Shown in pieces: positions 3,093 through 61,967 of a stretch of 64,000 nucleotides of DNA. The DNA lies in the NCBI GenBank assembly GCA_949825045.1, contig OX463836.1, positions 14,236,329 through 14,300,328 of the forward strand, given 5' to 3'. Numbering within the stretch: position 1 is the stretch's first letter; every line of letters begins with the position of its first letter. The notes under the pieces are model-generated. The model saw only the letters and a program-made list of their open reading frames with translations, made no database searches and was not told the DNA's origin. The position numbers and the translations under genes are program-made. The DNA is from Argyresthia goedartella. Its lineage: Eukaryota; Arthropoda; Insecta; Lepidoptera; Argyresthiidae.

Positions 3093-3179
3093 ATGCCTGA
3101 AACAATAATTCAAAGTGTCTTAACACACAAAATTTCTCTGGAAGTGCTCGTGAAATGGCTTAACGATGAAACGATAGAG
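3093..3179 (+). CDS. CDAN1: codanin-1 exon 1 (coding part)
   Basis: Codes residues 1-29, starting MPETIIQSVL and including ISLEVLVKWLN, which matches the layout of the vertebrate N-terminal helix (a start, a hydrophobic helix, then V-V-W). ATG 3093 is the first ATG in this frame, in a good context (gaaaATGc). It ends GAG|gttata, a 5' splice site with a poor +3 to +6. Reading through gives a TAA within five codons, so splicing here is required. Intron 1 is only 73 bases. Confidence 0.82.
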
Positions 3180-6100: not shown

Positions 6101-9100
6101 TCACAGACATTCAAGGTCCCAAGATAAATCACTTTTAGGTGATTTTCTCGCCAATGCTCAAGTCAAAAGTGCAAAGAAGAAACGGACCACACCAAAAAAT
6201 ATCTCCAATGAGGCAGAGGATAGTAAAGTTTTTGATCTAAGCAGCTCAGAGATGTTCCCTGAGATTGGTGTGCGAAAGTCCAGTTCCTTAAGATCAGAGA
6301 GGAGGCGAATCAAGCCAACGAACATAGATAAAACACCTCAAAAGAGTTTTTCACTCAATTCATTCAATTCAGAGTCTTTCCAGCAACCATCACCGTTAGC
6401 CCTAGAGGAAAATCAGGCTTTTAAACAACAAAAGCTGCAGCCAAAGGAATTAGCTAACAGTTTTGATGTCGAACGGAGCATATTAAAGCAAGAAAGACAA
6501 AAACTAATGGAGAAATTTAACATATTGAATACATCCAGTAGCCAAAAGTCACCACAGACACCCACTATCAAAGTCACTAAGAAAGATTCCTTTGAAAAAC
6601 AAACTTATAAGAATGCTGATGCAAGCAAAGTTACTTTCAAAGAGGAAATCGATATATTAGTAGAAATATACAAAATACTACTCAAAGACAATATGATCTT
6701 GAGCCTAAGCAGCGAAATATACTACCTCATATCAATATTAATGTCCCAACAGTATGAGGAGGACTATTTAGAAGCAGAAGAGAAATTGGACCAACGAAAT
6801 CTAGAATTCATACTAAAAACTATACACAACAGCACACACTTTGCTGTTAAATCACTCTGGCATCAACGGTTGATACTCGAATTCATGCTCGACAAGAACT
6901 CCCTAAAAGTTCTCGGAGAACACAAGAAAGTGAGAAGTTTCTATCCGGACTTGGCCAAGTTCCTACTAAATCTGTATGGAGTGAAGTGTGAGTCGGATAC
7001 AACTAAAGGGGATAAACCGGTTAGTGTAATCATTCTACAGAATCGGTACACCAATGGCGTGGTCTGTTTCAACTTCGAAACGGATAATGCGGATAACTTT
7101 CCATCGCTGTTGAGTTTTCAGAACTTTAAGAAGCAGCGGGATATGTTCTATGAAATACTCAGGTGAGCTTGCTTTAGAGTCGATGCAGACCACTGGATTT
7201 TTGATCGGCCGAAGTTTGGGCTGCCAGGCTAATTCGGCCGATGCCGAATCGTTGCATACATCTTCTATGTAAGAGCACAATTGAATTATCGGCCGATAGA
7301 AAGTCTAGTCTGTGGGTACTCTTATACTTTAAAGGTTCAATTCTGTAGCCGACTGAAACTGCAGACGGTGAGTCGCGAGAACAGGACAGCCAGCATAGTT
7401 ACCTGAACAAGAGAAAGCTTAGATATCTAGCGAGTGAACAACAGCGAGCCTTGTTTTATAGCGAGTGAACAAGAGATAGCGTTGTTACATAGCGAGTGAA
7501 AAAAAGAGAGCGGAGTTACCTAATGTCTCGCTCACTCGCTAGGTAACTGCGCTCGCCGTCTCGCTCACGCGACACCTCGCCTGCATCTGCGATTGGCTAC
7601 GAACTTGTACCTCAAGTTTGTCGATGTCGCAGGAATGTTCTAATACCCGTACACTTAAAAGTTTTCAAGGATACTTGCAAGCGTGCAGAAACTTGTCAAG
7701 ACGTCGTTTGAATTGACATGTTACCTGACAGATACAAAGAAAATTATGACGTGACTGACCCACCTCAGTAAGTCCCTCGTAAGTCGACAGGTAAGACAAC
7801 ATTTTTGCGACACCGACGCACCTTGCCGAAAACGCGACCGAAGTCCGGCGTGATTGTGCCCGCAATGCTATCAAGTTACGTAAGCTTCAATTAAGCAACG
7901 TAAATAAAAATTGATAAAAAATACTACTTCAAATAAAAAAAATGTTTTGTACCTACGTTGGAATTGGTTTGGGTGGTTAAATTCGTGTAAGTATGTGTAA
8001 AAAAATTATTTCTGACTTTTGAGTTAATTTGAAGTCGACTTATCGAGTAGACTAGTCGATTTTTTTTAATTAATTTTTATTTCGTAATTTTTTGTTGTTT
8101 CGTGTGGAATTTCTTGTAATGATAAGTTTTTCATGGATCCACTCTTTTAAGTACTGCTTAAAACCCCTCAACTCACCATGTTTCTTGCACTCCATACTGC
8201 ACTGCGTCAATATAATATGAGTAGATTCACAACTTCAGAAAATATTTTACCCCGCTAATTTTCAAGTTTTCAGTCTATTTTTCATAATTTGAAAACTTCC
8301 AAACCGATTTAGATAACACCTTCATCTATCATCCCTTCTTTGTTTCCCAGCTCTTATTAAGGTAGACTTAAACTTCATTGTCCAACCGATTCTGTGAACA
8401 CAAGCACTATTCCCTAATCTGGAGTAAGTATAAGCCAATAAAGAAAGAATGTCAAAATCCGATCCATAGTTTCGGAGCAACATGAAGACAAACATTAACA
8501 CAATCATACATACTCCTATGAAATTTTGTATACTTGTTTGGAAGCCCTAAAAGAATTACATGTGTGAATATTTTGCGTTTCCTATAATATTACATATCTA
8601 CTGAAGACCCGAATGGCGGAGTCGGCAGTGACCCTGCCTACGAAGCCAAAGGTCCCGGGTTCGAGTCCCGGTGGGGGCAAATATTTGTTTGATGAGAACG
8701 GATGTTTGTACCCTAGTCATGGTGGTTATCTATCTAAGTATAATATTTATCTATATAAGTATGTGTAGCGTTGTCTAGTACCCAAGATACAGGGAATCCT
8801 AGTTTGGGGCTAGATCAATGTGTGTAAATAGTGTCAAAGGTATCATTATTAAATTATTACTTAAGTATAGAATTAAGAACCTCTCCTTTTTGTGAAGTCG
8901 GTGAAAAATGATCCGCGGAGCTCGGTCGCGTCTTCGGCCATGGTGTGTCGGTAGTAGTCGTCACACTAAGTAATGGTATAGCCGACCCGGTCTGTCACAC
9001 CAGGCGGCCCAAATTGCGACATTCACAAGGCGTCAAAAGTAACTTGACTAAACGTACTGAACTGACAGCATGAAATCCGACAACTTTTGTTCGTTTTTAC

Positions 9101-12100
9101 GATTACTTTAATTATTTTACTCGTACTTGTGTTGTATACTTTATCGGTCTCAATAACACATACAACTTTATTTATTTATTTCTTTCTTTCTTTCCAGCTC
9201 TGTGGATAACTAACAGCTTATAAAGTATGATAATAGCCAAACTAAAACAAAAAAAGCCAATAAGAGCCACTTGTAGCAATAAAATATAAATAATTAATAA
9301 CTAGTCAAAGTTAGAATCAAAAACAGTTCACAGTAGATATAAAAACCAAGTTGAATGCATGAACCAAGAAAAATTAGAGTTATTCTAAAATTACAGATAT
9401 AGCTCAACACCAATAATGCCAGAATGCTACAGAATAAAAATAAATAAAAAATTAAGAACATAACCTTTTGTTAATGCGCCGCCTAACAGCAGCTACGCTG
9501 CTGCTGCCAAATAAGTCAAAATCAAAAGTAAGTTTATATCCAACACTATTTATATCCCGTCTTTTCAGATGGTATACAGAAACCCAGCACAACGGCAGTT
9601 CCAAATCGACCTTCCGCAGTCGAGTAAAGGCCCTGATCTCGCTGTCCGTGTCTCCGTTGAACCACGCCCACCTGGCCAGGCTGTGCACGTCGCACATGTT
9701 GGCAGAGTGCCTGCCTGCCACACAACAGGTATGCTTGCACAGCGTCACGCACAATCCCATACGGAGCTGCGGTGACAGTTGTGCCCACCGCCCACGTACA
9801 TGGCAAGCTAATGGGTAGTAAGTGTCTGATTTAACCAACTTGTTGGTTGGTTAAATCAGACACTTAACTAACTCTCTAGACCGTTAATTGAATGCCGACG
9901 TTTAACCCAGTCACTAGCATTTTGATTTAAATAAAGCATCGTCGAAAACGTTTAAACTCGTTGAACGTTTCGTTCACTCACTTGTCTGACGGAATTTTGT
10001 GACTTGGTTAAACGTCGGTATTTAATTAACGGTCTAGAGAGTTAGTTAAGGGTCTGATTTAACCAACTAACTGGACATACATACTATGCAGGCTGTCACG
10101 ATCACTCGCTCGGTAACTACGCTCATAGTCTCGCTCCCTCGCCTTAGCGACACGTCTGCAGTTGCGGTCGACTAAGTACTAAGGTGCACCTTAGGTCTCC
10201 GCCTGGCCCTATTCCTGTAAAAAAACAATGTAGTATGAATATATGCCCCAATCGAATGTATGTTGTCTATGATAGTATGAATTTTAATATGTTTGTCTGC
10301 AGGAAAGCAAGCTGAGTAAACTGCACAGGCGCCTGACCGGCCCCGCTACCCACGAGTCGCACCGCACTCCCAGCTTCACTGCCAAGGAGAGCTTCTACAA
10401 GTAAGCAAACTGCAGCGCCGCCTGACCGGCCCCGCCACACGAGTCGCACCGCACTCCCAGCTTCACTGCCAAGGAGAGCTTCTACAAGTAAGCAAACTGC
10501 AGCGCCGCCTGACCGGCCCCGCCACACGAGTCGCACCGCACTCCCAGCTTCACTGCCAAGGAGAGCTTCTACAAGTAAGCAAACTGCAGCGCCGCCTGAC
10601 CCGCCCCGCCACACGAGTCGCACCGCACTCCCAGCTTCACTGCCAAGGAGAGCTTCTACAAGTAAGCAAACTGCAGCGCCGCCTGACCGGCCCCGCCACA
10701 CGAGTCGCACCGCACTCCCAGCTTCACTGCCAAGGAGAGCTTCTACAAGTAAGCAAACTGCAGCGCCGCCTGACCCGCCCCGCCACACGAGTCGCACCGC
10801 ACTCCCAGCTTCACTGCCAAGGAGAGCTTCTACAAGTAAGCAAACTGCAGCGCCGCCTGACCGGCCCCGCCACACGAGTTGCACCGCACTCCCAGATTCA
10901 CTGCCAAGGAGAGCTTCTACAAATAAGCAAACTGCAGCGCCGCCTGACCCGCCCCGCCACACGAGTCGCACCGCACTCCCAGCTTCACTGCCAAGGAGAG
11001 CTTCTACAAGTAAGCAAACTGCAGCGCCGCCTGACCGGCCCCGCCACACGAGTCGCACCGCACTCCCAGATTCACTGCCAAGGAGAGCTTCTAGAAGTAA
11101 GCAAACTGCAGCGCCGCCTGACCGGCCCCGCCACACGAGTCGCACCGCACTCCCAGCTTCACTGCCAAGGAGAGCTTCTACAAGTAAGCAAACTGCAGCG
11201 CCGCCTGACCGGCCCCGCCACACGAGTCGCACCGCACTCCCAGCTTCACTGCCAAGGAGAGCTTCTACAAGTAAGCAAACTGCAGCGCCGCCTGACCGGC
11301 CCCGCCACACGAGTCGCACCGCACTCCCAGCTTCACTGCCAAGGAGAGCTTCTACAAGTAAGCAAACTGCAGCGCCGCCTGACCGGCCCCGCCACACGAG
11401 TCGCACCGCACTCCCAGCTTCACTGCCAAGGAGAGCTTCTACAAGTAAGCAAACTGCAGCGCCGCCTGACCGGCCCCGCCACACGAGTCGCACCGCACTC
11501 CCAGCTTCACTGCCAAGGAGAGCTTCTACAAGTCAGCAAACTGCAGCGCCGCCTGACCGGCCCCACCACACGAGTCGCACCGCACTCCCAGCTTCACTGC
11601 CAAGGAGAGCTTCTACAAGTAAGCAAACTGCAGCGCCGCCTGACCGGCCCCGCCACACGAGTCGCACCGCACTCCCAGCTTCACTGCCAAGGAGAGCTTC
11701 TACAAGTAAGCAAACTGCAGCGCCGCCTGACCCGCCCCGCCACACGAGTCGCACCGCACTCCCAGCTTCACTGCCAAGGAGAGCTTCTACAAGTAAGCAA
11801 ACTGCAGCGCCGCCTGACCGGCCCCGCCACACGAGTCGCAACGCACACCCAGCTTCACTGCCAAGGAGAGCTTCTACAAGTAAGCAAACTGCAGCGCCGC
11901 CTGACCCGCCCCGCCACACGAGTCGCACCGCAATCCCAGCTTCACTGCCAAGGAGAGCTTCTCAAGTAAGCAAACTGCAGCGCCGCCTGACCGGCCCCGC
12001 CACACGAGTCGCACCGCACTCCCAGATTCACTGCCAAGGAGAGCTTCTACAAGTAAGCAAACTGCAGCGCCGCCTGACCGGCCCCGCCACACGAGTCGCA

Positions 12101-15100
12101 CCGCACTCCCAGCTTCACTGCCAAGGGGAGCTTCTACAAGTAAGCAAACTGCAGCGCCGCCTGACCGGCCCCGCCACACGAGTCGCACCGCACTCCCAGC
12201 TTCACTGCCAAGGAGAGCTTCTACAAGTAAGCAAACTGCAGCGCCGCCTGACCGGCCCCGCCACACGAGTCGCACCGCACTCCCAGCTTCACTGCCAAGG
12301 AGAGCTTCTACAAGTAAGCAAACTGCAGCGCCGCCTGACCGGCCCCACCACACGAGTCGCACCGCACTCCCAGCTTCACTGCCAAGGAGAGCTTCTACAA
12401 GTAAGCAAACTGCAGCGCCGCCTGACCGGCCCCGCCACACGAGTCGCACCGCACTCCCAGCTTCACTGCCAAGGAGAGCTTCTACAAGTAAGCAAACTGC
12501 AGCGCCGCCTGACCGGCCCCGCCACACGAGTCGCACCGCACTCCCAGCTTCACTGCCAAGGAGAGCTTCTACAAGTAAGCAAACTGCAGCGCCGCCTGAC
12601 CGGCCCCGCCACACGAGTCGCACCGCACTCCCAGCTTCACTGCCAAGGAGAGCTTCTACAAGTAAGCAAACTGCAGCGCCGCCTGACCGGCCCCGCCACA
12701 CGAGTCGCACCGCACTCCCAGCTTCACTGCCAAGGAGAGCTTCTACAAGTAAGCAAACTGCAGCCCCGCCTGACCCGCCCCGCCACACGAGTCGCACCGC
12801 ACTCCCAGCTTCACTGCCAAGGAGAGCTTCTACAAGTAAGCAAACTGCAGCGCCGCCTGACCGGCCCCGCCACACGAGTCGCAACGCACACCCAGCTTCA
12901 CTGCCAAGGAGAGCTTCTACAAGTAAGCAAACTGCAGCGCCGCCTGACCGGCCCCGCCACACGAGTCGCACCGCACTCCCAGCTTCACTGCCAAGGAGAG
13001 CTTCTACAAGTAAGCAAACTGCAGCCCCGCCTGACCCGCCCCGCCACACGAGTCGCACCGCACTCCCAGCTTCACTGCCAAGGAGAGCTTCTACAAGTAA
13101 GCAAACTGCAGCGCCGCCTGACCGGCCCCGCCACACGAGTCGCAACGCACACCCAGCTTCACTGCCAAGGAGAGCTTCTACAAGTAAGCAAACTGCAGCG
13201 CCGCCTGACCCGCCCCGCCACACGAGTCGCACCGCACTCCCAGCTTCACTGCCAAGGAGAGCTTCTACAAGTAATACAGGCCCACTACTTCGAAGGCGAG
13301 TCAACACTTTATCTCAATAACTTGGCAATCTCTTGGCAGTTCATGTATACATCATCATATATACTGTATAGCTTATTGTATCTATTACATATAGGTACAT
13401 TTAATATCTCATCATTATTATTTATTAATATAAATTTTGGATTTCACGTCTTCTCCAATTAACTTCTGTGTATATACTTAGTGAGTTTTCAACTAGAATT
13501 AATATTAAAATATTTAAGTGATCTGCATTGTTGTATACCTGTTGTATAGACCTTAATAAATAAATAAAGAAATCTCCATACACAGCAAATTATTGTATAG
13601 GACAGAGGAGGCCATCTTTGTTATACCGAAGGTTTGGTCCGTCGAGGTATCTTGCCACAAAATTTTGGAAAAATATACCCCCTCCGATGCGAGAGTTGAA
13701 ATCAAGTCACATTCTAGATCTCGCCAGTCTTCTTTGTTGAAAGTAAAGTTTGTCTCTCTGTCTGGTGTTCTTCACATTATGACGGTCATGGTGTGTGGGG
13801 AACATGCTCAAGTTGCTTCTAACGTACCCTCGCCTCTAGCGTGTCCTGATTGGTGGACACAGAGTGGAGGTGCAAGCTCTTGCCTCAGCAGCCCCGCGTG
13901 GGAGAAGTATTGACGCCATGTTTTTGTGTGTTGCAGGGAGTTCATCATATTCGCGGAGAACGAATCGTTTCGCGCCCATCTCCGCGATTCCCTGGCCACT
14001 GAGATATGCGTGCTCAATGCCAAGCCCATTGGGAATTCGGACGACAGGGCCTCGAGTAAGCATCATTTTACTATATATTTTTTTAATAAAAAGTGTATAG
14101 TAAAATAGTTCTAAGATACGGTATTTGACTGCTAGTCAAAATAGATACTTTTTAGGAACTGTCAAAACGGTCATTTTGTTTGTTGTTTGTGTCAAACAAA
14201 CTTATAAGTAACTTGGTTACATATAAGGAGTATGAAAGTAGCCGCAACAATGACTTACAACATTTTACACTTACAAAGATAAAGATACCTAATCCCCATG
14301 TAAGAAACTTGAATACCATTATGCGGCGATACGGAACCCCTCGTGCACGGGTCGGACACGCACTTGTACGCTGGTATGGAACCCTTCGCGCGTGAGTGCG
14401 ACTCGCACTTGACCGTTATTTTTTTACCACAGCCACAAGCGCGGACATCGCAAAAGACTATCTAGACTTGCTGAAGAAGCTGAGACTGGTGTCCAAATTC
14501 CTGGGCTTCCTGACAGCAATGCCGTACATACAACTGCCTATAGAATATTCCACTAAGGTATGTAAACACTGAAAAAAAAACTGGACCAAAATTTATCTTC
14601 GGTCACCCTTCTTTCTTTTAATGTTGCAAGCTTTATACATATAAGTTACTTTATCTACACACGTCAATTGTCAATTGTAAGACGGGCTGGTTTCCGCAAC
14701 TCGACGACGAAAGCGCCTATTTTGCGTGTGGGTGGGAATGCGACATCATTCGAGCCAACCCAACTCCTCCAGGAACGCCAGTAGGCCCTTTACGTTACCG
14801 ACTATCCCTGGAAGGTCCCTCGATTGACCGAGGTGTTTAGCCCTGTAGTCCGCTACTCCTGTGCACTCCATGAGGACGTGAGCAGCCGTTTCTTCTGCCT
14901 CCAAGCAGGCTCTGCAAAGGGGGCTGTCGGTAACACCTAGGACATATAGATGTTTGTTAAAGAAACCATGGCCAGTAAGTGCTGCAGTTACCAGTCGCAT
15001 GCGCGGCCTACTAAGTCGAAGCAAGGTCTTAGCCAGCCTAGCGCTAGGGGACGGCAAGGCCAGCTTAGCCTGCCTGCACTCCTCATGGTTTGTCCAAAGA

Positions 15101-18100
15101 GTGGCATGATCATTCCTGGTCGACTCTCTCAGAAATGAGCGTACCATCTTGAAGGGAAGAGGGATGATAGGTTCGGGACCATACGCTGTCAAGCTAGATC
15201 CTTTACGCGCCAACTCATCCGCTGCATCGTTACCTCTTGATCCGCTGTGTCCTTTTATCCATTGAAGGATTACGCGGTTGTGTTGACATACCTCCATTAG
15301 TCGTTTGTGACACTCGTAGATTAGCCCTGAGTTAATAGTGTTGCTATTTAGGGCTTGTAGGACGGCCATGCTATCCGAGAGGATTCGAATGGAGGAATCT
15401 CTTACCTTTCTCGATGCTATGGCATTAGCGGCCGAGATGATGCCCATGCATTCAGCTTGAAAGACAGTATTATGGGCACCCAGTGGAATGGCTATCTTGA
15501 TGTTTAGGTCCTCCGAGAAGGTGCCTGAACCTGGTATCTACACACGTATCATAAACCCTCTTTACTGCGTCCAAAAACTACAAGTTACGACCAGCATAAT
15601 GATAAAAACTCATTTCTTATCTGAATAATGATCATTATGACCAAAATTTGTCAAATTATGACATTTAAATTTCGAACGCCGACGCTCACCTGCGTGCCGC
15701 CCCCAGTTTGTCTGTGAAGTTGGTACAGAACAAGCTAAACAACTGCAGAGCAATGATCAATGCCACAATGCCGGTCGAACATGCGGTTCCTGAACACATC
15801 AAAGAGAGCTTATGATATGTGTGTAGATTAACTAGTGTTTGTAACGGTACATAATTAGGCTTTAAAACTCTCGAGTGATATTATTATGTTTAACTATAAT
15901 GCCGTTATAATTCGTTTGTCTTTGTCTGTCACTTTGAAATTTGTGTTGGTGAGAAAAGGACAAAGCACATTTTAGCTATCATAGCTAAAATGTGCTTTGC
16001 ATAGCTATAAAACTTAACAAACCTATGTTTGTTAAGTTTTATGAATAAGGAGGCTAGTCTTGTAAAATCGATACAGTACAATAGAAGACAACGATTCGAT
16101 TAGAAAAATACGTCGATTGGTTTAAGAAGGTGTTTTAAAAAGGTGATTAGTATTGACTCCTTAGGAATTTTGACAACTTTCACTTCATAATTGTGTTTAT
16201 TCACATTATTTTAAAGTCCAAGTTGATCCGACTATCACTCAGAAACAATCTTTAAATTTAAAGCCTCGTAAAACGCTAAAAGGCGCTAACGTCAAGGTGT
16301 GTGAACTGCATCAAAATTAAAAATCATTTTTTATGGATCGATAGATCGTGTCTGCAACTGGCTGTATATGTATTATTTATGTCGTTGGTTGGTTAAATCA
16401 GACACTTAACTAACACCCTAGGCCCTAGACCGTTAATTAAAGACCGACGTTTAACCAAGTCACTAGCATTTTGATTTAAATAAAGTATCGTCGAAAACGT
16501 TTCATAACCTGTCTTACCGAAAGCCGGCGTGTTGGTTAAATAATGTAAAACAAGATGGCGTCACGACAACAGCTGATTACTTTCAGAGTCTAACTTTTCA
16601 CTACTGATAAGCTCAGGGCAAAACATTGCGGTAGCTTAGGTGAAGAGTAAAGGGGATGACCGGAGCGAAGCCCCCTTTATCCGTCGTGTTAGGTTGAACA
16701 TGTAAGAAAAATACTTAAAAATAAACTTAAGTACACATACAATATTTTTATGTGTACTCAAGTGTATTTATATTGTATCTGTCGTGTTGCCTAGCAACGT
16801 CTAGATAACTCGTTAAACGTTTCGTTCACTCACTTGTCTGACGGAACTTCAGCGAATTGGTTAAACGTCGGTCTTTTATCAACGGTCTAGGGAGGGGGTT
16901 AGAAGTGTCTGATTTAACCAACTAACTGCGACATTTATACCACGTCGTATCAAAAAAGTTACGTTTCAACAGTCCCCTCAAACGTCAATTTCGGAGTGGG
17001 AATTAATCGAATAATCGGAATGAATGAATTGGCCGACAGACACTGTAACACTAATTTTTTTTACCGTAAAGCGGCAACCCTCAAACTGTCACTTGGGTCC
17101 GGTTATACGGATTTCAGGGAACATATCTTGTTAATCCAAATTAACATCGTACCTATTTATTTTATAAAGGTCGATATCAGGGAACGAACGATCAATGGTC
17201 GTAGTTTCTGAAAACGTTGCCTCATGGAAAAGTCTCAACCAGTCCTTCATTCAATAAAGCCTTGCTCCTAGGACACCGTCTCGGACGGTCGGCCATAATG
17301 TAATCTCTCAGTTATATCATGTTCAATGCACGCCGACGCGTTTTCATCAATCAATCATATCAATCAATCATATCAGTGAAATCCGCAGTTTTCTCTTCAA
17401 CAAAACCCTTCTCGGTCGCTTTTATTATAATAAGTAATGTCAGTTTCTCAACGCATAGTGCGTAGTTCATTAGTCATAAATATATAGTGTTCAGTAAATT
17501 AAATTGTAGTCGTGTTAACCAAGTAAGCGTTTAACTTCCACAATCGTCAATCAGTAACTTACACACATTGATCTAGCCCCAAACTAGAGTTCCCTGTATC
17601 TTGGGTACTAGACAACGATTTACACACATTGATCTAGCCCCAAACTAGAGTTCCCTGTATCTTGGGTACTAGACAACGATTTACACACATTGATCTAGCC
17701 CCAAACTAGAGTTCCCTGTATCTTGGGTACTAGACAACGATTTACACACATTGATCTAGCCCCAAACTAGAGTTCCCTGTATCTTGGGTACTAGACAACG
17801 ATTTACACACATTGATCTAGCCCCAAACTAGAGTTCCCTGTATCTTGGGTACTAGACAACGATTTACACACATTGATCTAGCCCCAAACTAGAGTTCCCT
17901 GTATCTTGGGTACTAGACAACGATTTACACACATTGATCTAGCCCCAAACTAGAGTTCCCTGTATCTTGGGTACTAGACAACGATTTACACACATTGATC
18001 TAGCCCCAAACTAGAGTTCCCTGTATCTTGGGTACTAGACAACGATTTACACACATTGATCTAGCCCCAAACTAGAGTTCCCTGTATCTTGGGTACTAGA

Positions 18101-24100: not shown

Positions 24101-27100
24101 AAACTTCAAAATCGCGATGCCTCGCACATAAGCGCGTTAGGTGAGCGGTTAAACTTCAAAATCGCGATGCCTCGCACATAAGCGCGTTAGGTGAGCGGTT
24201 AAACTTCAAAACCGCGATGCCTCGCACATAAGCGCGTTAGGTGAGCGGTTAAACTTCAAAACCGCGATGCCTCGCACATAAGCGCGTTAGGTGAGCGGTT
24301 TAACTTCAAAATCGCGATCAAATTTCCAAAAAACTGTGATACAGCTGGGTCAATATAATGAATAGTTTCCAAATCCGTTTCCAGATCCAACCCACCATCG
24401 ACCTCAAAGGAATCCTGGCAGAAAGCAACGAGAAAGCCAGACTGTGCATCACCGTACCCTGGATCGTGCAATATCTATCTATGTTGGACTACACCACCCT
24501 CCGCACCGTCTACCACCAGCAGCTCCTATCATATCTCTTCGAAATATACACCCTCAAGCTGAAACTCGACAATGAGATGTCCATGAAACTCAACACAGTA
24601 ATATTCCTCAAACTGACTTTAGGCTGGCTCTTCGACTTACCTCAGTTTCCGCAAGATTTGTTTTACAACCGCCAGAAGTTTAACATGCTGGCGTCGTTCG
24701 CTAGTGAGGAGAACGTCGATTCTCTGGAATTGATCGACGAATCGATTCTTTTTGAGGTGTGTCCGTTCTTGCGGGATATTAACGTGCTGCTTCTGACTTG
24801 CAAGCCGGCGCAGGAGTTGAAGGAAGGGAGCAGTTTTAGGCACATCACTCCGGTGTCCATGAGCTTGAACCCTGAAGAGAGGATACGGAACAAGGAGAAG
24901 GAGATTCAGGTATGTTACTTTATGTATGTTACTGTATGTGGACGAGCGGTGTCTCCCAAGCGAGAGGTATCGGTTTCGAACCCCGGCTGTGCAAGAAAAA
25001 AAAATATTCCTCAAGTCGTGTGTGTTTACATGTTTGTGATGTCGTTGTTTCTGTTTCCCACGTCACAGGGTATCCCAGTGTGGGGCGAGAAGCAATGTAT
25101 TCTCCTATATGTAAATGTTATGTATTATGGCGTGAAGTGTGGAGGAGGGGAAGAGAGGCCTTTACCCAGCAGTGGGATGATGTAGGCTAATAATAATAAT
25201 GTATTATTATTATTATTATTCACATTTTTAATTATTATTAGTGTTTAGGCTAACAGAAACTTTTGCATGCCAATAACTGGCTAAGGCTAAACCTACTTTT
25301 CTAGACTTAAACAGCCTTACAGAAATCAGGAATTGTAATTCGATCAAAGAGTGCTAAATGCTGAGTTACCTGCGCCGCTGCAAACTGCGTAGGTTTACGG
25401 GTGGCTGGTGGAAAGTTTCGAGTTAGTACAACATGACAGTATTTTGCAACTTTGCACCCAAGTTTAGGCAGATTTATCAATTAACTTACCGTTACCGTTA
25501 CCATTCTTCATTTCTCGATTGTAGTCGCTAATAGTAATCAAGATGTCCTGGAAACTTGAAACTTGGCACAAAGTTCTACCACGAAGGGACAAGTCGGCAA
25601 ACAGTTAGATTTACGATTAAAAAAATCAAACAAAAAGCTGAGAAGTGTTGTGTGGTAAAGTTAAAACTAGTGGTTCTGTGACTGAAACTAATATAAGACC
25701 TCACTTCAATTTCAAAAATTGCAATACGTCTGTTGTATATAACGCCACAGCAAAGTTGATGATCTCAAACATAACTTATCTTAAATAACATTATAATGAT
25801 CTTAAATTTGATTAAAATTTCCTCCCATCAAAAATGGCGTTTGACATTTTTTTTACCAAATCAAGGAACTTGAGTGCCAATTTTCGTCAAAATCGGTTGG
25901 AAAATGCGAGCTACGGACAAAACTGCACTCTTCGCTCGCTCGGTGAATAATCTAGGTGTACCATGTCCACCGTCACCGTCGCAGGCGCGGCTAGAGGAGG
26001 AGTTCCTCAAGGCGCAGCCCTCCTCGACCCGCCGCGTGCTGGAGCTGGCGACGGAGCGCGTGACGTCATGGCGCGTCAAGTGTCTGGCGGGCGCGGCGCG
26101 GGACTGTCGCGCGCGCTGCCGGCTGCTCGCGCAACGCGCGCTCAGCAAGGGGAACACGGTAACAGTAACACTGCGTTCAAGTTTCTCGATTCATCGAAGA
26201 ATCGATTAAATATGTAAAGACAGAATGGTGGAATGAATCGATGAATCTTAGAATAATTAGATAATAATTATATGGATGTAGTGCAGGCAAATGAAACAAC
26301 AATTTGCCTGAGCCGGGGCATTTGGAACCTCAAGCTAAAATTGGTTCAAATGTTAAAGAATAGTTTTCTGCTTAATATCCCAAAGTTACAAAAAAATCAT
26401 CTTGGAGAAAATCCGCCATCTTGGAAATAACTAATTTCCAACATGGCGGCTGAACGGAACGTCTGATAGTTTAATTTTTGCGTGAAAATTACTTAATTTT
26501 AGGCTGTGTTAACTTCCAAACCACTAAAATTTATAAATAAAAAATACGTACTACTTTCTCTTTATTTTTATGAAATTTTATGCTATTCTACTTATTCGAA
26601 TAGTTCGGGTAATGGATTTCTTATTATTTTAATGTAAACACGTATAATAAACCCTCTTTACTGCGTCCAAAAACCACACATTACACCAGCATAATGATAA
26701 ACTTCTTGGTAAAAACTCATTTCTTATCTGATTTTGGTACATTATGACCAACACCCACTCTCGAGTTTTAATGCCCTCCGTTATGTAGCAGTCCAGTTAG
26801 TTTGGGCCACCGGGCCTTTTATTTTGTGAAGACTTTAATTGTTAAAATAACATCCTTCGTGACGTCACTTGTTCACAATTTTGGAACGGTTTTACTTGGG
26901 GCTGGTTGTTTCCGATTATAAAACTAAAAAACTATAATATCAATACATGTTTACGTTCCCACCGACTTATTGACTGACAGGTAAACTGTTGACACTTCAC
27001 AGATAACTGTCCTGTATAAACAGGACAGCCAACTTAACGGCGAAGGGAATTTGAACAAATTACTCCGTAGATGACAAATGACCGACATGAATTTTACACA

Positions 27101-30100
27101 TAATTCAGTAATCTTTTTAACATAAAATTTAGTTTATAAAATATACATTTCTGATAAATTAATAATTTAGAGGACAATCTTTCACAAATAAAACTAATAC
27201 TAAGCTCAATAAGGCTTGTGTTATGGGTACTAGACGACGATATATTTAATAGAAATAAATACTTATGTAAATAACATAGAAAACATCCAAGACTAAGAAA
27301 CAAATATTACACAAATTTTCGCCCTTCATGGGATTCGAACCCAGGACCGTCAGCTTCGTAGGCAGGGTCACTACCCGCTAGGCTCAACCGGTCGTCATTT
27401 GTCGTAATATTGTCAACTAAACGTTTTTGTTGAAATAGGTTCAGCTTGAGACATTTCTAGATTTATTGGACTACCTTGTCAAATACCGTATTGAACTTCC
27501 CAGACGAACCCAACACAAGTAGTGCGAGACATCTACACCGCGCAGCTAGACAAGCTGCGCTCGAGCGCGCTGGACACGTCGCGGCGGCTGGTCGCGCAGC
27601 GCGCCGGGCTGGCGCTGCAGGCGCTGCTGGCGGCGGGCAGCAACACGAAGGTAACAGATAGTGCGAGACATCTACACCGCGCAGCTAGACAAGCAGCGCT
27701 CGAGCGCGCTGGACACGTCGCGGCGGCTGGTCGCGCAGCGCGCCGGGCTGGCGCTGCAGGCGCTGCTGGCGGCGGGCAGCAACACGAAGGTAACAGATAG
27801 TGCGAGACATCTACACCGCGCAGCTAGACAAGTGCGCTCGAGCGCGCTGGACACGTCGCGGCGGCTGGTCGCGCAGCGCGCCGGGCTGGCGCTGCAGGCG
27901 CTGCTGGCGGCGGGCAGCAACACGAAGGTAACAGATAGTGCGAGACATCTACACCGCGCAGCTAGACAAGCAGCGCTCGAGCGCGCTGGACACGTCGCGG
28001 CGGCTGGTCGCGCAGCGCGCCGGGCTGGCGCTGCAGGCGCTGCTGGCGGCGGGCAGCAACACGAAGGTAACAGATAGTGCGAGACATCTACACCGCGCAG
28101 CTAGACAAGCAGCGCTCGAGCGCGCTGGACACGTCGCGGCGGCTGGTCGCGCAGCGCGCCGGGCTGGCGCTGCAGGCGCTGCTGGCGGCGGGCAGCAACA
28201 CGAAGGTAACAGATAGTGCGAGACATCTACACCGCGCAGCTAGACAAGTGCGCTCGAGCGCGCTGGACACGTCGCGGCGGCTGGTCGCGCAGCGCGCCGG
28301 GCTGGCGCTGCAGGCGCTGCTGGCGGCGGGCAGCAACACGAAGGTAACAGATAGTGCGAGACATCTACAACGCGCAGCTAGACAAGCAGCGCTCGAGCGC
28401 GCTGGACACGTCGCGGCGGCTGGTCGCGCAGCGCGCCGGGCTGGCGCTGCAGGCGCTGCTGGCGGCGGGCAGCAACACGAAGGTAACAGATAGTGCGAGA
28501 CATCTACACCGCGCAGCTAGACAAGCAGCGCTCGAGCGCGCTGGACACGTCGCGGCGGCTGGTCGCGCAGCGCGCCGGGCTGGCGCTGCAGGCGCTGCTG
28601 GCGGCGGGCAGCAACACGAAGGTAACAGATAGTGCGAGACATCTACACCGCGCAGCTAGACAAGCAGCGCTCGAGCGCGCTGGACACGTCGCGGCGGCTG
28701 GTCGCGCAGCGCGCCGGGCTGGCGCTGCAGGCGCTGCTGGCGGCGGGCAGCAACACGAAGGTAACAGATAGTGCGAGACATCTACACCGCGCAGCTAGAC
28801 AAGTGCGCTCGAGCGCGCTGGACACGTCGCGGCGGCTGGTCGCGCAGCGCGCCGGGCTGGCGCTGCAGGCGCTGCTGGCGGCGGGCAGCAACACGAAGGT
28901 AACAGATAGTGCGAGACATCTACAACGCGCAGCTAGACAAGCAGCGCTCGAGCGCGCTGGACACGTCGCGGCGGCTGGTCGCGCAGCGCGCCGGGCTGGC
29001 GCTGCAGGCGCTGCTGGCGGCGGGCAGCAACACGAAGGTAACAGATAGTGCGAGACATCTACACCGCGCAGCTAGACAAGCAGCGCTCGAGCGCGCTGGA
29101 CACGTCGCGGCGGCTGGTCGCGCAGCGCGCCGGGCTGGCGCTGCAGGCGCTGCTGGCGGCGGGCAGCAACACGAAGGTAACAGATAGTGCGAGACATCTA
29201 CACCGCGCAGCTAGACAAGCAGCGCTCGAGCGCGCTGGACACGTCGCGGCGGCTGGTCGCGCAGCGCGCCGGGCTGGCGCTGCTGGCGGCGGGCAGCAAC
29301 ACGAAGGTAACAGATAGTGCGAGACATCTACACCGCGCAGCTAGACAAGCAGCGCTTGAGCGCGCTGGACACGTCGCGGCGGCTGGTCGCGCAGCGCGCC
29401 GGGCTGGCGCTGCAGGCGCTGCTGGCGGCGGGCAGCAACACGAAGGTAACAGATAGTGCGAGACATCTACACCGCGCAGCTAGACAAGCAGCGCTCGAGC
29501 GCGCTGGACACGTCGCGGCGGCTGGTCGCGCAGCGCGCCGGGCTGGCGCTGCAGGCGCTGCTGGCGGCGGGCAGCAACACGAAGGTAACAGATAGTGCGA
29601 GACATCTACACCGCGCAGCTAGACAAGCAGCGCTCGAGCGCGCTGGACACGTCGCGGCGGCTGGTCGCGCAGCGCGCCGGGCTGGCGCTGCAGGCGCTGC
29701 TGGCGGCGGGCAGCAACACGAAGGTAACAGACGGTCCGTCACGGAGTCACCGCCGCCGTTTGGCCAGTGGGAGAATGTAAACAAACATCACAGTCTGCCG
29801 ATTCCGCAGACTGCAAACTGAACTAATTAAACCCGTTGACTGTTTGTGCGTTATATCTTTTTTGGCCTTGATACCTTTCCCGACATACCCTGGCCTGGCA
29901 ACGTGTTTTAGAGCTAGTTTGAATATGGAATTTATCATCAGTATACCTCAAGTTTTACACTATTAATTACTTTGTTTACCATCCTTTAATTTGGGTTTAC
30001 TATTTCTTTACTCAATCATCAAGCTTAACAACGCTAACTAAAGGCTTACAAATAAATTTATATTTCCAACTAGTTATATTTAAAGAACTATAGCCTAAAT

Positions 30101-33100
30101 TAACCCGACACATAAACCCGATACAACAAATACAAAATGTGCCAATCACACGCCAAACATGTTTGTTGTGCTGTGCAAAAGACATCTTAACTCATACGAG
30201 ATAATAATAAAAAAGTAATGTCGGCTATAGCCGACGTGGCGCCATCGGCACGACTTTCAGCTGTCAGCCAGTCAAGACTAGCGCGGTCAACAAAAGGTTA
30301 ATCTGGGTGTTATTTTATGCAACTTCTTTAAAATACCAGTTTCGTTTTCAAAATTAATTATTTTTCACTGAATTAATAGGTCAGCATCCAATTATAAGCT
30401 CCTCATAAGTACTTTTCAAGCAACTATGATGTTGTATTACAAGCTACGGTTAATATAACACAGCATAGTCATAATTCTATGACAACAAAATTTGTAATAT
30501 GTCTGCACATTGCCAGCTTCTAATAAATGTATCGACTGTACTTATATAACATTTTTTCAACGACCTCTAATTTCATAAAGTGATCTATTTTTATATGTTA
30601 GACTAATTGTTGACTGAATCTACTATAGGTATACTAGATTCGCATTATTATTTCGATATCGCCCTAGCACCGACTCATAAAAAACACAGTCTAGCCACAA
30701 GACTACCGGTTAGAAAGGACTGCCTAGGAAGTGGGGTGCCCTGTTTCGGATTTTCTATTTTATTCGACCTAAATTGTCGAAAATCTTGGAAAAATATGCA
30801 ATTTTGCATGATAAAGTATGATGATTTATTAATTTAGTAATTGAATAAATTAATTCATTCACTAATTTTGAGGCTAGAATTTGATTTTATTACTGGTTAG
30901 TCGTTGAATCTCTAAAATACATAGGTCACACTAAAAGTTTCCGGAACTGTCTACTTACATAAATAATATTTAAAAAGTAATTACAACATTTGAAAATGGA
31001 ACTCTTTGGCTGTAGAATGCAGTTTCATTTGACTGTCAATTGTTAATAAATTGTGGCGCCATTTTAAAAATTTCGTGTCTACTGTTAACATGGATTTAAC
31101 TCGGGAATTTTTTCATAGTATGATTTTCTACGATTTTAAGTGTAATTTGACAGCTCATCGGAGCCTCGCTTGGCTTCAATCTGCTTTTGGCGATGATGTA
31201 CCACGCAAGACGACTATTTATGGCTGGTTTGCAGATTTCAACCGCGGTCGTGTCAGTCTCAGTGACTCATCTCACGATGGTCGCCCCTCCACCGCTGTGA
31301 ACAACAAACACATCGATGCTGTGCGCCGTATGATCGAAACAGACAGGCATGTGACCTACCATGAGATTCGGGCATCCTTAGACAGAGGCATGAGTCAAAT
31401 ACAATTAATCCTACAAAAAACATTTGGATGCAATGCCATGCCTACCAGATTCAACGAAGGGGCGTCGTTTTTGGTGTGGGACATAGTAAGAGGTGACGAA
31501 ACAAGGATTTATTGCTACGATCCCAAAACAAAGCAGCAATCAAGCGTACAGGACTTTCAAGATGAGCCGAAACTAACCAAAGCGGCTCGCGTGAAAAGTG
31601 CATCTAAGCGGATGATTGCTTATTTTCTAAATAAAACTGGACACGTGGCTACTGTTGCTTTAGAGAATCGTCGTACCGTGAATAGTAACTGGTACACGAC
31701 CATTTATTTGCACGAAATTGTTGTCAAATATTTTCATCACCAGAAGAGTATGAAAAATACGTTTATGAGGTCACCACAGCGGAGTGGCACAAATGTTTTC
31801 AAAATTGGTTTAATCGTATAAAAAAGTGCATTTACGCAAAGGGAGATATTTTGAGAAACAATAAATTCATTTTGACCTTTAATAGTATTATTTTCTTCTT
31901 AATTCTGGAAACTTTTAGAGCGCCCTACATATATAAAAAAGCTCACTCACAAAACTTGCTGCTGAGTTATCAATTTTGTTGCTAAACTATTTATTGGTAA
32001 CGTTATATTATTGTTGTTTGTGTATTGGCGCTGGCTGTTTAATATTCTGTTGTATGATGATAAATTAAAATAATATACGTTAATAACAAAAAATATTTCA
32101 GCTTGCACTCATAATATCCCAATAAAATGTTGTCATTTCAATTTCAGGCTTTAGAAGCTGTGCTGGTGCGATCGTGTCTGAATAGAGTCCACAAATGGAT
32201 CTGTGATCATTGGGACAGCACCGGTAATACATTCTTGTATATTCGTTACAAGCAATTTAAATTCTTGCCGTGTTACCTCAAAAAATATTAAACAGCGTTT
32301 AACCTCAATACAAACGTCAAATCCTATACATTTTTGTTTTTAAACAAGTGTTGAACGGTAGTTTATTTTTTGTGGTAAGGCCTAGCCACTTTATTCCGAA
32401 ACTATTAAGACTACACAGTTGAAACTTAATATCTAGATGTTTTCTGTAAACCGCTTTACGATTTTGATACCAAAATTAAAAAGAAAAAAAAATGGGCTCA
32501 AAATTTTTTTTAGTGCCTAACCACAAAGAAATAAACTACTGTTCAACACTTGTTTAAAAACAAAAACGTATGGGATTTGACGTTTGTTTTGAGGTTAAAC
32601 GCTGTTTAATATTTTTTGTGGTAACACGGTTAATGTTTATAGTGAATTAATCACTGACTTTAGTCCGTGGTCTAGCGTTTTAAAGCTCGCCCGTGACAAC
32701 AGAGACTCGCGGCTTCGAATCCCGGTGTTGATCATGTACCAATGAGATAAGTATTTTTTCTGAAGTAAATTTCACGAGAAAACCTTCATATCTCCATAGC
32801 AACGGCGATGGGCTAGCCCGCTATCACGCATAATGGACTATTTAATTACTGGCGATACCTGGGAAATATCAGTGCCTCTGCCAACCCGCATGGGGCAAGG
32901 CGTGCCGCTACTAACTACTACTACTACTAACTACTTTTTTCTTTAAATACTAGTTTATCTATCCAGGTGTCCTATGCAAAGACATTGAGGGTGTTTTTTT
33001 TCTTTAAACACTAGTTTATCTTTTCAGATGTCCTATGCAAAGACATTGAGGGTGTTTATTTTCTTTAAATACTACTTTATCTATCCAGGTGTCCTACACA

Positions 33101-36100
33101 AAGACATTGAGGGTGTTTTTTTTAAATACTAGATTATTTTCCCAGATGTCCTATGCAAAGACATTGAGGGTGTTTATTTTCTTTAAACACTAGTTTATCT
33201 TCTCAGATTCCTATGTAAAGACATTGAGGGTATTTATTTTCTTTAAACACTAGTTTATATTTTCAGATGTCCTATGCAAAGACATTGAGGGTGTTTATTT
33301 TCTTTAAATACTACTTTATCTATCCAGGTGTCCTACACAAAGACATTGAGGGTGTTTTTTTTAAATACTAGATTATTTTCCCAGATGTCCTATGCAAAGA
33401 CATTGAGGGTGTTTATTTTCTTTAAACACTAGTTTATCTTCTCAGATTCCTATGTAAAGACATTGAGGGTGTTTTTTTTAAATACTAGATTATTTTCCCA
33501 GATGTCCTATGCAAAGACATTGAGGGTGTTTATTTTCTTTAAACACTAGTTTATCTTCTCAGATTCCTATGTAAAGACATTGAGGGTATTTATTTTCTTT
33601 AAACACTAGTTTATCTTTTCAGATGTCCTATGCAAAGACATTGAGGGTGTTTATTTTCTTTAAATACTACTTTATCTATCCAGGTGTCCTACACAAAGAC
33701 ATTGAGGGTGTTTTTTTTAAATACTAGATTATTTTCCCAGATGTCCTATGCAAAGACATTGAGGGTGTTTATTTTCTTTAAACACTAGTTTATCTTCTCA
33801 GATTCCTATGTAAAGACATTGAGGGTGTTTTTTTTCTTTAAACACTAGTTTATATTTTCAGATGTCCTATGCAAAGATATTGAGGGTGTTTAGTTTTTTT
33901 AAATACTACTTTATCTATCCAGGTGTCCTACACAAAGACATTGAGAGGTTTTTTTTTAAATACTAGTTTATCTTTCCAGATGTCCTACACAAAGACATTG
34001 AGGGTGTTTTTTTAAATACTAGTTTATCTTTCCAGATGTCCTATGCAAAGACATTGAGAGTGTTTATTTTCTTTAAACACGAATAATAATAATACCTTGG
34101 ACACTATTTACACACATTGATCTAGCCCCAAACCAGGATTAATTATATCTTGGGTACTAGACACCGACACACATAGTTATATAGATATATACTTAGATAG
34201 ATAAACAACCATGACTAGGGTACAAACATCAGTTCTCATCAAACAAACATTTGCCCCCACCGGGAATCGAACCCGGGACCCTTGGCTTCGTAGGCAGGGT
34301 CACTGCCGACTCGGCCATTCAGGTCATCTAACTAACACTAGTTTATCTTTACAGATGTCCTATGCAAAGATATAGAGGGTGAAGTGAAAAACCTTCTTAT
34401 ACTGGGAGACAGCGTACTTCTCGAAGATACTAACACGCACACAGACAATGTTCTCAGCATGACCCTACCTGAGGACGAGTTCTGTAGGGTCAACGTCAGC
34501 CCCTCCGCGGTCATTATCGACCTTAAGGTTGGTATTGAAGAAGTTGAAGGCCCACTTGCGTCGTTCCTATAACTCAGAGCTATTGGGTTAACTCAGTAAT
34601 TCCAACATAACATTTCAATATCCGGGTTAATTGGTTTGTGCAACTGAGCTGCAATAAATCACCAAGTTAAAAAACTAAAAAAATCTACTTCAAGTTCAAG
34701 CCCTATTTCTTCCTCCCCGGTCGGGATGAGAAATGAACTCTATGTACATGAAAAGTCCTCATCGAAACTATCGCTGCACGGAACCACAAACCGAAACGTC
34801 ACCTGTGTACATATTTTTTGTCTTTGTTGATTTTTTATTTTGACAAGGCAAAGTCAAATGTCTTTTATTACTGTAGATATTTACATATACTTAGCAATCG
34901 TCATTTTTTGCCCCTTCTCTACATTGGACCACTATGGGAGAAGAAAGGCGTATAAAAAGCGGATAGATTTTCATATCTCTTTTAAAATTTGCTTGTGCTT
35001 AACTAATACAAATATTACAATATTAATTATTAAAAATAATAAGCAGGAATAAATAATTACAAAATTATTAACAGCAAAGTCTGTGTTGAGCCAGATAAAC
35101 CCCATACAGTCCCGTCATTTAAGTAATCTTGAACATTGTAATATCCCTTTTTCGGCAAACTCGCTTTAACATGCTTTTTGAAATGCTCAAATGGCAATTT
35201 CAGAATAAAATAAAATATAAAATTTATAGGGTAATATTTAATCGCACAGCAAAAATACTGATTTTCTCACCAAAAAAGGATCAGCAAAAATACTTTTTAT
35301 GTTTTAAGTATTTTTGTTGTTCATACATGTTCAACCTAATACGAAGAATAAAAGGGGCTTCGCTTCGCTCACCCCCTTTACCCTTCACCTAAGCTACCGC
35401 AGTATTTTGCCCAGATATTTGCTGTGAAAATCAGTATATTTGCTGTGCAAATCAGTAATATTGATGTGCAGTTTAATATTTCCCAAATTTACATGGGACT
35501 ACCTCTGAAGTATGACCTATCAGAACAATCAGAACAATAATCATCAAAAATGATTCATAATTGACGAAATAACCACGTAAAAAAAAAACAATCGAGATAG
35601 AGAACCTCCTTTTGAAGTCTGTTGAAAACTACACACCTTAGAGCGAGCCAGAGGCAAATTAGACCAATTCAAGAGGCGTTACAACAGCTAACCTAAAAAA
35701 AAAGTATGAGAACCCGGTCTAATGGCAAGCCAAGAGCTGTCAAATTTATGTTTAATTTTTTTCGTCGCCTCAATATCTTAATCTGAGACGTATGTAAATC
35801 ATCTCCGTCTATCACGTTGTGCCTAAACATAAGCGCGTCTGTGCCTTGCCACCCCATACGAGAAAATACTTGACAGTAAGTTTGTTGACAGGAACAAATC
35901 TGCCTCCTCCTAGAAGACTCCACCCCGAGCTCGCTGGACGCGTGCCTGGCGCTCAGTGCGCTGGTGTGCGTGCGCGAGAACGTGTTCACACGCGTACCCA
36001 CACAGCGGACCCTAGTGCAGCTCACGAGGGACCTGCTCGCTGTTGTCGGTCAGTTTGTTCATTCACTCACTCACTCTTTTATATCGTCATTTAAGAACTG

Positions 36101-39100
36101 TCGTTCATTCATCACCATTATTATTATTATTATTTTATTGGAGAGGGAGAAAATGTAATTACCCATCGCCAGGAGTCAGACCTCCCTGCTATGTCCGGAT
36201 CCCCACATATTGAGCGGGCATCAGCTCGACTATACGGACTACAAACAACCCCTTTCTGTTTACAGTTATCTATGTTTGATTTTACTGTGAGCCATGGTTT
36301 TACTGTGAGCCATGGTTTTACTGTGAGCCACGGTTTTACTGTGAGCCATGGTTTTACTGTGAGCCATGGTTTTACTGTGAGCCATGGTTTTACTGTGAGC
36401 CATGGTTTTACTGTGAGCCATGGTTTTACTGTGAGCCATGGTTTTACTGTGAGCCATGGTTTTACTGTGAGCCATGGTTTTACTGTGAGCCATGGTTTTA
36501 CTGTGAGCCATGGTTTTACTGTGAGCCATGGTTTTACTGTGAGCCATGGTTGTACTGTGAGCCATGGTTGTACTGTGAGCCATGGTTTTACTGTGAGCCA
36601 TGGTTTTACTGCGAGCCATGGTTTTACTGTGAGCCATGGTTTTACTGTGAGCCATGGTTTTACTGTGAGCCATGGTTTTACTGTGAGCCATGGTTTTACT
36701 GTGAGCCATGGTTGTACTGTGAGCCATGGTTTTACTGTGAGCCATGGTTGTACGTACTGTGAGCCATGGTTTTACTGTGAGCCATGGTTTTACTGTGAGC
36801 CATGGTTTTACTGTGAGCCATGGGTTTACTGTGAGCCATGGGTTTACTGTGAGCCATGGGTTTACTGTGAGCCATGGGTTTACTGTGAGCCATGGGTTTA
36901 CTGTGAGCCATGGGGAATTAATTCATCACCAGAGATCGGATATTTGGAGGCATAGATGCAAGAAAGGAAATTAACCAAATTTCACTAATCACAATAATAA
37001 TAAAAAATAGGTACATTATTCGTACTTAATATAGTCTGAGGTTGTTTGTTATGCCAGTTTGGTAATTACCTACTTTACAATATATAAGGTAAATATGCCT
37101 CCGATTCTGTAGAATCGTTTGTATGATGTATGTAGAAAAATGATTGTAATCAGAACACTAAATTTGTCGATTCTGGAATCGGGTTTTTTTCTTTTTAAAA
37201 GAAAAGTAAGCCGTGTTGCAGTGTACGAGTTTCTTGCGCCGCTTCTTCTCCGCTGCCGTAACACGCTCCGAAGGGATAGTAGTTTGTCTTGCATTATATA
37301 GATTCGAATGAAGTTCAAAAAGTGTTCGTAAGAATCTATTTTGAAGTTTGAAGTTTTACGATACAAAAGTGCATTCCATAATAGCAACACCTCAACATTA
37401 GGTAAATATGTATCCGATTATCCGATCTCTGTTCCTAACTCATTCAGACCTAAATAACTCATTTCTGACTAGCGCTCACTCGCTCACTCAATGCATGCAC
37501 TCACTCTATATCTATAATCTCAGACTCATTCATTCATGAGTGAATGCATGACAGTAATTTAGTGTCATTCATTCATAAAAACATTCAAATAAAAATATAT
37601 ATATTTTTTTTCAACTAAAATACAGGCGTGAAACTCAATAAAAAAAAACAAGAAAAATTGTGTTTCTTTTTCAAACTCCGTGGTTCACACTTACCTAATT
37701 ACTAAATGAATAGTGATGGAAAACATCGTGAGGAGACCTTCATATCTCCATATCTGCGGCGATGGGTCAGCCCCCTGACACTCGAAACAGAATATCTGAT
37801 ACTTGGCTGAAGGTGATCTGTGCCTTTGCAACATGGTGTAGGAAAAGCTGTGACGCAACTAAATTATACTCATCGTTTCACAGCCAGCAAGAAACCCGAT
37901 CTCATAACAGAAGAATTTCTGAACCAAATTCACAAAATATGGAACCAGTGCTGTCCTGACCGGAAACGGAACTCCCCGGCTGCAGAATCACCGGCAATCC
38001 GGCCGGAAAGTCCGGAGCTACGCGGCCTCGGCCATGACGTCCGGATACCGACACCGGTATCCGATGAAGAAGAAAGCGGTGTAAACAGTGCTAAAACGGT
38101 TGTTCTATCAGAAGTCTGCGCTGATCAAAGTGATAGAACAGATTCAAGTGCCAAAGAACCGCAAATGCTTGTGACTCCAGTAAAAAACAGTTCTGAACAG
38201 AACAGAGAACAGAATTCCGCTCAAAACATCATATTTTCGACTCATACAGACCAAATTTCCGCCCATACCACTAAAGCTGCTGAAAAAAATACCGCTCAGA
38301 CCGAAATCGCGGAACCGAGTGATTCCTTCTTAGAATGCTTTGAGAGAATGTTATGTCCAAGAAATATAGTTCTGCTTAGCAATACTAAATGTGAAGCGAC
38401 TAAAGTGTGGGAAGCCATGGCGAAAGTGTTAATATTCATGCTGAAGAACGACTACTTGACTGAGGATTCTTTGACGGAGCAGTGCTTAGCTGTCTACAGG
38501 CAGGAGTGGCCTCAGGTATATATATATAATATATTACACTTTTATCAAAAGCCGTTCTGATCAGTTCAAACGCATTTTTCATTAAATCAAATATCACCTT
38601 AGTTCCTATGATCAACTAGTTAAATAATTATATCTACACACGTATCATAAACCCTCTTTACTGCGTCTAAAAACCGCACGTTAAGATCAGTAATAATGTA
38701 AAACTATTTCGTAAAAACTAATTTCTTATCTGAAAATTTGTACATTATGACCATAATGAAAAAAAAATTGACAAATTATGACATTCAAATTTCCAACGCC
38801 GACGCCCGCCTGCATGCCGCCCCTAGTTTGTCTGTAAAATTGGTACTACTGAACAAGCTAAACAACTGCAGAGCAATGATCAATGCCACAATGCTGGTCA
38901 AACATGCGGTTCCTGAACACATCAAAGAGAGCTTATGATATGTGTGTAGATAAACTAGTGTATGTAACTGTACATAATTAGGCATTAAAACTCTCGAGTG
39001 ATATTATTATGAAACCCGCCTTCGGCTCGTTTCATAAACCCACTCTCGAGTATTAATGCCCTCCATTATGTAGCAGTCACATAAACTACTATGAGACATG

Positions 39101-61827: not shown

Positions 61828-61967
61828 CGATTTTTATTATCTGAAGGTAGTGGTCTTATCATGCAAATCCGACATCTAGGAATTTCGATGGCTTTTGAAA
61901 AATGTACTTATCACAACACGATTATTTTGACAGGAGCTGTATATTATTCTGAATTTGCTTGTTTATG

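Follow-up and report, generated by a model that had tools for sequence, protein, structure and literature searches.

The window analysed here is a stretch of 64,000 nucleotides of Argyresthia goedartella DNA (C31:14236329-14300328), within an assembly of 1.109 Gb in 89 contigs that was covered by our whole-genome searches. Its forward strand holds, at 3093..40981, the coding gene of lepidopteran codanin-1 (dlt). A model in which splice sites were placed by eye and the exons joined yielded 16 coding exons encoding 1439 aa in a single open frame, with a GT start and an AG end in 15 of 15 introns. The spliced protein matched the Pfam family Codanin-1_C (PF15296, 3e-18) and aligned over its whole length with 14 codanin-1 entries from Lepidoptera at 53-63% identity, Plutella xylostella being the closest among them.

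Combining this model with TRF, we found that three exon-intron junctions of codanin-1 are tandemly repeated, the extra copies being intronic, and that both boundary types are affected, the 5' boundary in arrays 1 and 2 and the 3' boundary in array 3. A sequence-only reading of the same DNA had claimed as much, and the TRF arrays, the spliced model, the PF15296 match and the orthologues bear it out. The 33, 15 and 19 copies which that reading counted are those besides the working exon; with the working copy included, the arrays comprise 34, 16 and 20.

Three amplified junctions in codanin-1

Array 1 (10318..13274, forward strand) consists of 34 units of 87 bp, each corresponding to exon 5 minus its first 15 nt, followed by the donor within 6 nt of intron (TRF: period 87, 34.0 copies, 97% matches). 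The 3' part of the working exon 5 (10303..10400, forward strand) is unit 1, 89 bp long including its 6 intron nt; beyond it, 31 spacings are 87 bp and one is 86 bp, and the final unit is shortened. The donor GT is intact in 33 of the 34 units, and the GTAAGC hexamer of the working copy recurs in 30 decoys. The 31 full-length copies are 99.1% identical to the consensus, which 15 of them match exactly, with divergent copies at the ends. The working exon differs from this consensus by substitutions and by a frame-shifting 2-nt indel. Since protein alignment shows that the working exon 5, and not the array copies, keeps the reading frame of the orthologues, the copies of array 1 seemingly descend from a mutated copy of exon 5. 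A whole-genome search with the 87-bp unit returned 34 matches, every one within array 1, such counts being lower bounds. A dispersed satellite family was considered for this unit and rejected because the matches lie in the array only, with the proviso that absence of a match does not prove rarity.

Array 2 (27520..29731, forward strand) is made up of 16 units of 139 bp (TRF: period 139, 16.0 copies, 98% matches), each comprising exon 11 minus its first 16 nt, the donor and 8 nt of intron. Unit 1 is the 3' part of the working exon 11 (27504..27650, forward strand), which departs from the array consensus at a single base (codon CTG, against CAG in the consensus), and the donor GT is intact in 16 of 16 units. 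Starting exon 11 at 27520 brings in an in-frame TAG, but with the acceptor at 27504 the frame stays open. We considered whether the unit might be exactly one exon, a hint of an RNA intermediate, and rejected this because the unit begins 16 nt inside exon 11.

Array 3 (32937..34077, forward strand) repeats the 3' splice site of intron 12 together with the start of exon 13 in 19 copies spaced 56-61 bp apart (TRF: period 61, 19.2 copies, 85% matches, with longer periods too), and the start and acceptor of the working exon 13 (34355..34527, forward strand) form the 20th copy. CAG is found in 19 of 19 copies with a search pattern that itself demanded CAG, and the TRF count of 19.2 indicates that few copies can lack it. 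Between the array and the exon lies a SINE-like insertion (34081..34333, forward strand; approximate limits, by eye) flanked on either side by AACAC, also judged by eye, from which it follows that exon 13 probably once adjoined the array.

The working exon is the outermost copy in all three arrays and differs each time from the array consensus. As anatomy, with the decoys intronic, this agrees with the sequence-only reading, but as a clue to mechanism the position fails: where the unit takes in an exon only partly, the remainder lies outside the array, so that the copy joined to this remainder must be an end copy. The outermost position is thus forced by geometry and provides no separate evidence of mechanism.

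Codanin-1 also carries arrays that touch no junction. A 3.4-kb array of 8-bp units (ACCCCAGC/T type) occupies 20176-23543 in intron 8, starting about 27 nt past the exon 8 donor, and 18 near-identical 61-bp copies of an apparent SINE tail lie at 17559-18656. Further intronic arrays that span no junction were located at 23805-24318 (50 bp), 36280-36913 (18 bp) and 39632-40794 (21 bp), and outside the gene 24 copies of a 55-bp unit extend over 61957-63283. By eye, single SINE-like copies related to the 17559-18656 array were seen at about 8600-8850 and at 34081-34333. Inspection by eye likewise pointed to transposon pieces in intron 7 (14746-15537, with an antisense RNase H-like frame) and intron 11 (31033-31821, with a mariner-like transposase frame). 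Just downstream of codanin-1, the list of open reading frames shows long frames at 43252-47762 that look by eye like a Ty3-type retrotransposon, resembling gag and a protease-reverse transcriptase-integrase polyprotein.

Junction arrays in other genes and other Lepidoptera

A Pfam family search of the same genome revealed an ABC-transporter exon repeated six times in tandem (C3:23356673-23357857; TRF: 191 bp x 5.8, 97%), the unit starting about 40 nt inside the exon, as placed by eye, and ending 4 nt beyond the donor. On C19, a kinesin exon continues into a 59 bp x 3.4 array (83%, TRF), whose units each hold about 11 nt of the exon and end about 48 nt into the intron. Junction arrays therefore recur in unrelated genes, which contradicts the suggestion of a tolerance peculiar to codanin-1. 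As side observations, the last copy of the ABC-transporter exon array with donor on C3 (stretch L041, 1575-2678) is truncated and diverged, and a C4 array near a kinesin exon, considered as a third control case, was rejected: it stops upstream of the exon and is purely intronic. Inspection by eye of the match tables for kinesin (94 matches), kinase (136 matches; best 130 of 555 candidates scored) and cytochrome P450 (94 matches; best 92 of 287 scored) showed no exon repeated in a tandem run. These tables miss short units, the C19 kinesin array having gone unflagged; many kinase and P450 genes look intronless, which makes the null weak there.

To set these arrays against chance, we used the 30 top-ranked kinesin and 30 top-ranked ABC matches, each extended by 1.5 kb in both directions, together with 11 further stretches picked for multiple matches, so that the sample is not random; the codanin-1 window loci (L001-L008) were excluded. 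These 208,972 distinct bases contain 16 arrays with a period >=20 and >=2.5 copies (77 per Mb), of which 2 span a junction. The sample comprises 103 exon matches, 108 having been counted of which six are copies of one ABC exon, and hence 206 junctions, an upper figure given that some matches may share an exon or lie in intronless genes. From density and mean unit length, 0.96 junction arrays were expected, and the 2 observed do not depart from this (P(>=2) 0.25).

Among the 30 junctions of codanin-1, a gene picked for its arrays, 3 junction arrays compare with 0.14 expected (P 0.0004), or with 0.37 at the gene's own array density (P 0.004). Fisher's test on exons, 3 of 16 in codanin-1 against 2 of 103 control matches, gave P 0.017, a value biased by the same choice of gene, and random placement of the 8 codanin-1 arrays with a period >=20 put at least 3 of them on a splice junction with P ~0.004, which overstates the case because codanin-1 was chosen for this feature. 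For this reason, a real local excess in codanin-1 is possible, and P values from a gene so picked do not prove it. In the comparison with chance raised by the sequence-only reading, the 209 kb of control genic DNA lie near expectation, and codanin-1 lies above it with a bias of selection.

We consider it probable that these are ordinary minisatellites, born and then multiplied by unequal exchange in a genome rich in arrays, and that purifying selection has preserved a single copy of each exon. Short tandem duplications would arise wherever breakpoints happen to fall, and would then expand and be homogenised through unequal exchange or slippage. A segment that by chance straddled a junction would yield an array in which an end unit stays joined to the remaining exon sequence; this end copy would be held coding and properly spliced by purifying selection, and the other copies would be intronic. 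The rate of junction arrays in unrelated genes (2 among 103 exon matches, 0.96 expected) speaks for this account, as does the presence in codanin-1 of arrays that touch no junction, one of them apparently derived from a SINE tail. Against it stand the 3 junction arrays of codanin-1, where 0.14-0.37 were expected, and the junction repeats that the same gene shows in other Lepidoptera.

Regarding these, long tandem repeats were detected in 5 of the 45 lepidopteran codanin-1 proteins of our search result, a set from which P0041 was excluded and in which exon numbers were given by eye according to the codanin-1 boundaries of the window. Three of them contain a repeated exon end that reads on into an apparent translated GT donor, at exon 4 in both Plutella (P0002) and Chrysodeixis (P0045) and, less directly, at exon 14 in Aphomia (P0020); Mythimna (P0004), with a tandem coding repeat near exon 10, and Ostrinia nubilalis (P0039), with one in exons 7-8, are less clear cases. 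The segments in P0002, P0020 and P0045 are apparently translated intron, and the repeats in all five entries are possibly gene-model errors caused by arrays. We left the low-complexity PRSP repeats of Arctia (P0015) out of the junction cases, and P0016, P0031 and P0043, with 1-3 repeated 7-mers each, out of the count. Such repeats were absent from 14 of 14 other codanin-1 proteins, either non-lepidopteran or unassigned to species. As a control, guanylate cyclase had no such repeats in 31 lepidopteran entries among the matches listed (beta: 4 lepidopteran clusters in the best 120 of 587 matches; alpha: 27 lepidopteran entries in the best 120 of 901). The difference from codanin-1 is suggestive and not significant (Fisher P 0.07 for 5/45 and 0.20 for 3/45), with a control that is far more conserved, Lepidoptera collapsed at 90% identity and low-scoring aberrant entries escaping the best-120 lists. 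Annotated proteins of related species, the comparison proposed by the sequence-only reading, do show junction-like repeats (3 of 45), at exons other than those amplified here as mapped by eye.

One might argue from this distribution that codanin-1 is a hot spot in Lepidoptera, or is more tolerant of such arrays than other genes, since three lepidopteran proteins carry exon-end repeats and two more carry coding repeats with none in the control. We regard this as unlikely: neither Fisher value is below 0.07, the control is the more conserved family drawn from best-120 lists, another Plutella entry (P0001) is without the repeat of P0002, and a protein survey reveals only those arrays that gene predictors have absorbed.

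The ends of the units offer a different lead. They lie 6 nt past the exon in array 1, 8 nt in array 2, 4 nt in the ABC array and about 48 nt in the kinesin array, so that in three of four donor arrays no more than 4-8 nt of intron belong to the unit, a pattern not expected of random breakpoints (n=4, post hoc). U1 pairing at the donor ends about where the units of arrays 1, 2 and ABC end. A mutational process tied to transcription or to splice sites, whether through R-loops, U1-bound nascent RNA or GT-seeded end joining, might accordingly favour duplications at junctions, and the occurrence of three junction arrays in one gene would fit it. Yet the kinesin units end far from the donor and array 3 sits at an acceptor, the control junctions carry 2 arrays against 0.96 expected (P 0.25), and the +4 to +8 pattern, noticed post hoc on four arrays, remains a lead only; we hold such a process to be distinctly unlikely. 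We are equally doubtful of the broader proposal that a donor-site-linked process continually makes splice-junction satellites in Lepidoptera, with codanin-1 a recurrent hot spot hit at different junctions in each species.

Decoy splice sites and their tolerance

We scored splice sites using small matrices built from the 15 donors and 15 acceptors of codanin-1 itself, with real acceptors scored leave-one-out. The best decoy donors scored equal to real ones (9.3 and 8.9). The best acceptors within arrays 1 and 2 reached 1.5 and 0.6, respectively, where real acceptors range from 0.8 to 13.2, and one AG in array 1 outscores the weakest real acceptor. The 19 decoy acceptors of array 3 scored 8.3-13.0, as against 12.5 for the real exon 13 acceptor. 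We then modelled 66 decoy uses (32 donors in array 1, 15 donors in array 2 and 19 acceptors in array 3), none of which yielded a full-length protein, all stopping early. As frequent use of inner copies would break the gene, we infer that splicing selects the outermost copy in vivo.

Exon definition likely accounts for the tolerance of arrays 1 and 2, as their decoy donors would have hardly any usable 3' splice site upstream. Array 3 contains four 61-nt stretches bounded by an acceptor and a CAG|GT donor, and exon definition alone would consequently be insufficient for its tolerance. These pseudo-exons and AG|GT sites, along with the truncation predicted in 66 of 66 decoy uses, might be taken to mean that the decoys are functional, tuning codanin-1 output by unproductive splicing or acting as recursive splice points. 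This appears very improbable, as the donor hexamers of array 1 are no less variable than the rest of the copies (2/186 sites versus 22/2511 elsewhere), acceptors are almost absent from arrays 1 and 2, and the repeats of the orthologues lie, by eye, at other exons. That the arrays are assembly artefacts is scarcely credible. Assemblies do fail at long runs of near-identical units, and copy numbers may be wrong, but the window lies within a 24.9-Mb contig, variants are interspersed among the copies, array 3 has higher-order periods, three separate arrays leave the gene intact, and other genes hold similar arrays.

Relation to mirages and other known systems

Amplified splice sites are not without parallel. 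Turri et al. (1995) reportedly described, in the human gene 6-16 (G1P3/IFI6), a minisatellite with multiple splice donor sites. The likeness is that minisatellite units carry exon-end donors; the units there are reportedly short and several donors are reportedly used, whereas the use of decoys in codanin-1 is modelled. Zhuo et al. (2007) reportedly traced human introns to tandem arrays. In potato RdRp, an intron was gained by tandem duplication across an intron-exon boundary, with the splice signals copied (PMC4974935). That case involved a new intron, unlike codanin-1, whose spliced model requires none. Work on human segmental duplications reports internal tandem repeats at exon-intron boundaries that alter introns (PMC2812944), averaging about four units of 30 bp in recent paralogues, compared to up to 34 units here.

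The closest counterpart is found in amphioxus. The sequence-only reading knew of no described class of splice-junction satellites; two reports, however, describe 'mirages', minisatellite-like tandem duplications that span an exon-intron boundary, 5' or 3' (PMC3087553), in the genes for Adh3, the globins BflGb6 and BflGb9, troponin C and PGBD5 (PMC3087553, PMC3902484), the 2013 report having added PGBD5 and cited lancelet troponin C (PMC3902484). Inner mirage units are homogenised, edge units are excluded from this, the working exon adjoins the array, two BflGb6 haplotypes have 6 and 3 units, and mirages were examined for splicing and length polymorphism (PMC3087553). Among the matches listed in a search of open-licence literature, we found no report of junction-spanning arrays in Lepidoptera, which leaves their absence from the literature unproven.

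The likeness is close. The unit contains an exon-intron boundary in the three codanin-1 arrays as well as in the ABC and kinesin arrays; 5' and 3' boundaries are both affected, here in codanin-1 itself; the inner units of array 1 are homogenised next to a divergent exon copy, and the exon copy of array 2 is one base off; and several genomic loci are involved, here two further genes among 103 exon matches. The differences are the lepidopteran host, the longer arrays (34 and 16 units, where the two BflGb6 haplotypes have 6 and 3), and the presence of three arrays in one gene. Judging from their sequence, and with splicing modelled, the codanin-1 arrays are junction minisatellites of the mirage type, a kind known from lancelets.

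Such arrays are natural competition tests of splice-site choice, and they may explain odd repeats in annotated lepidopteran proteins, which calls for caution with gene models. In Lepidoptera, for which numerous genome assemblies exist, the birth of mirages, their tolerance and their influence on splicing can be measured on a large scale. Mirage arrays, as known from lancelets, now extend to an insect order.
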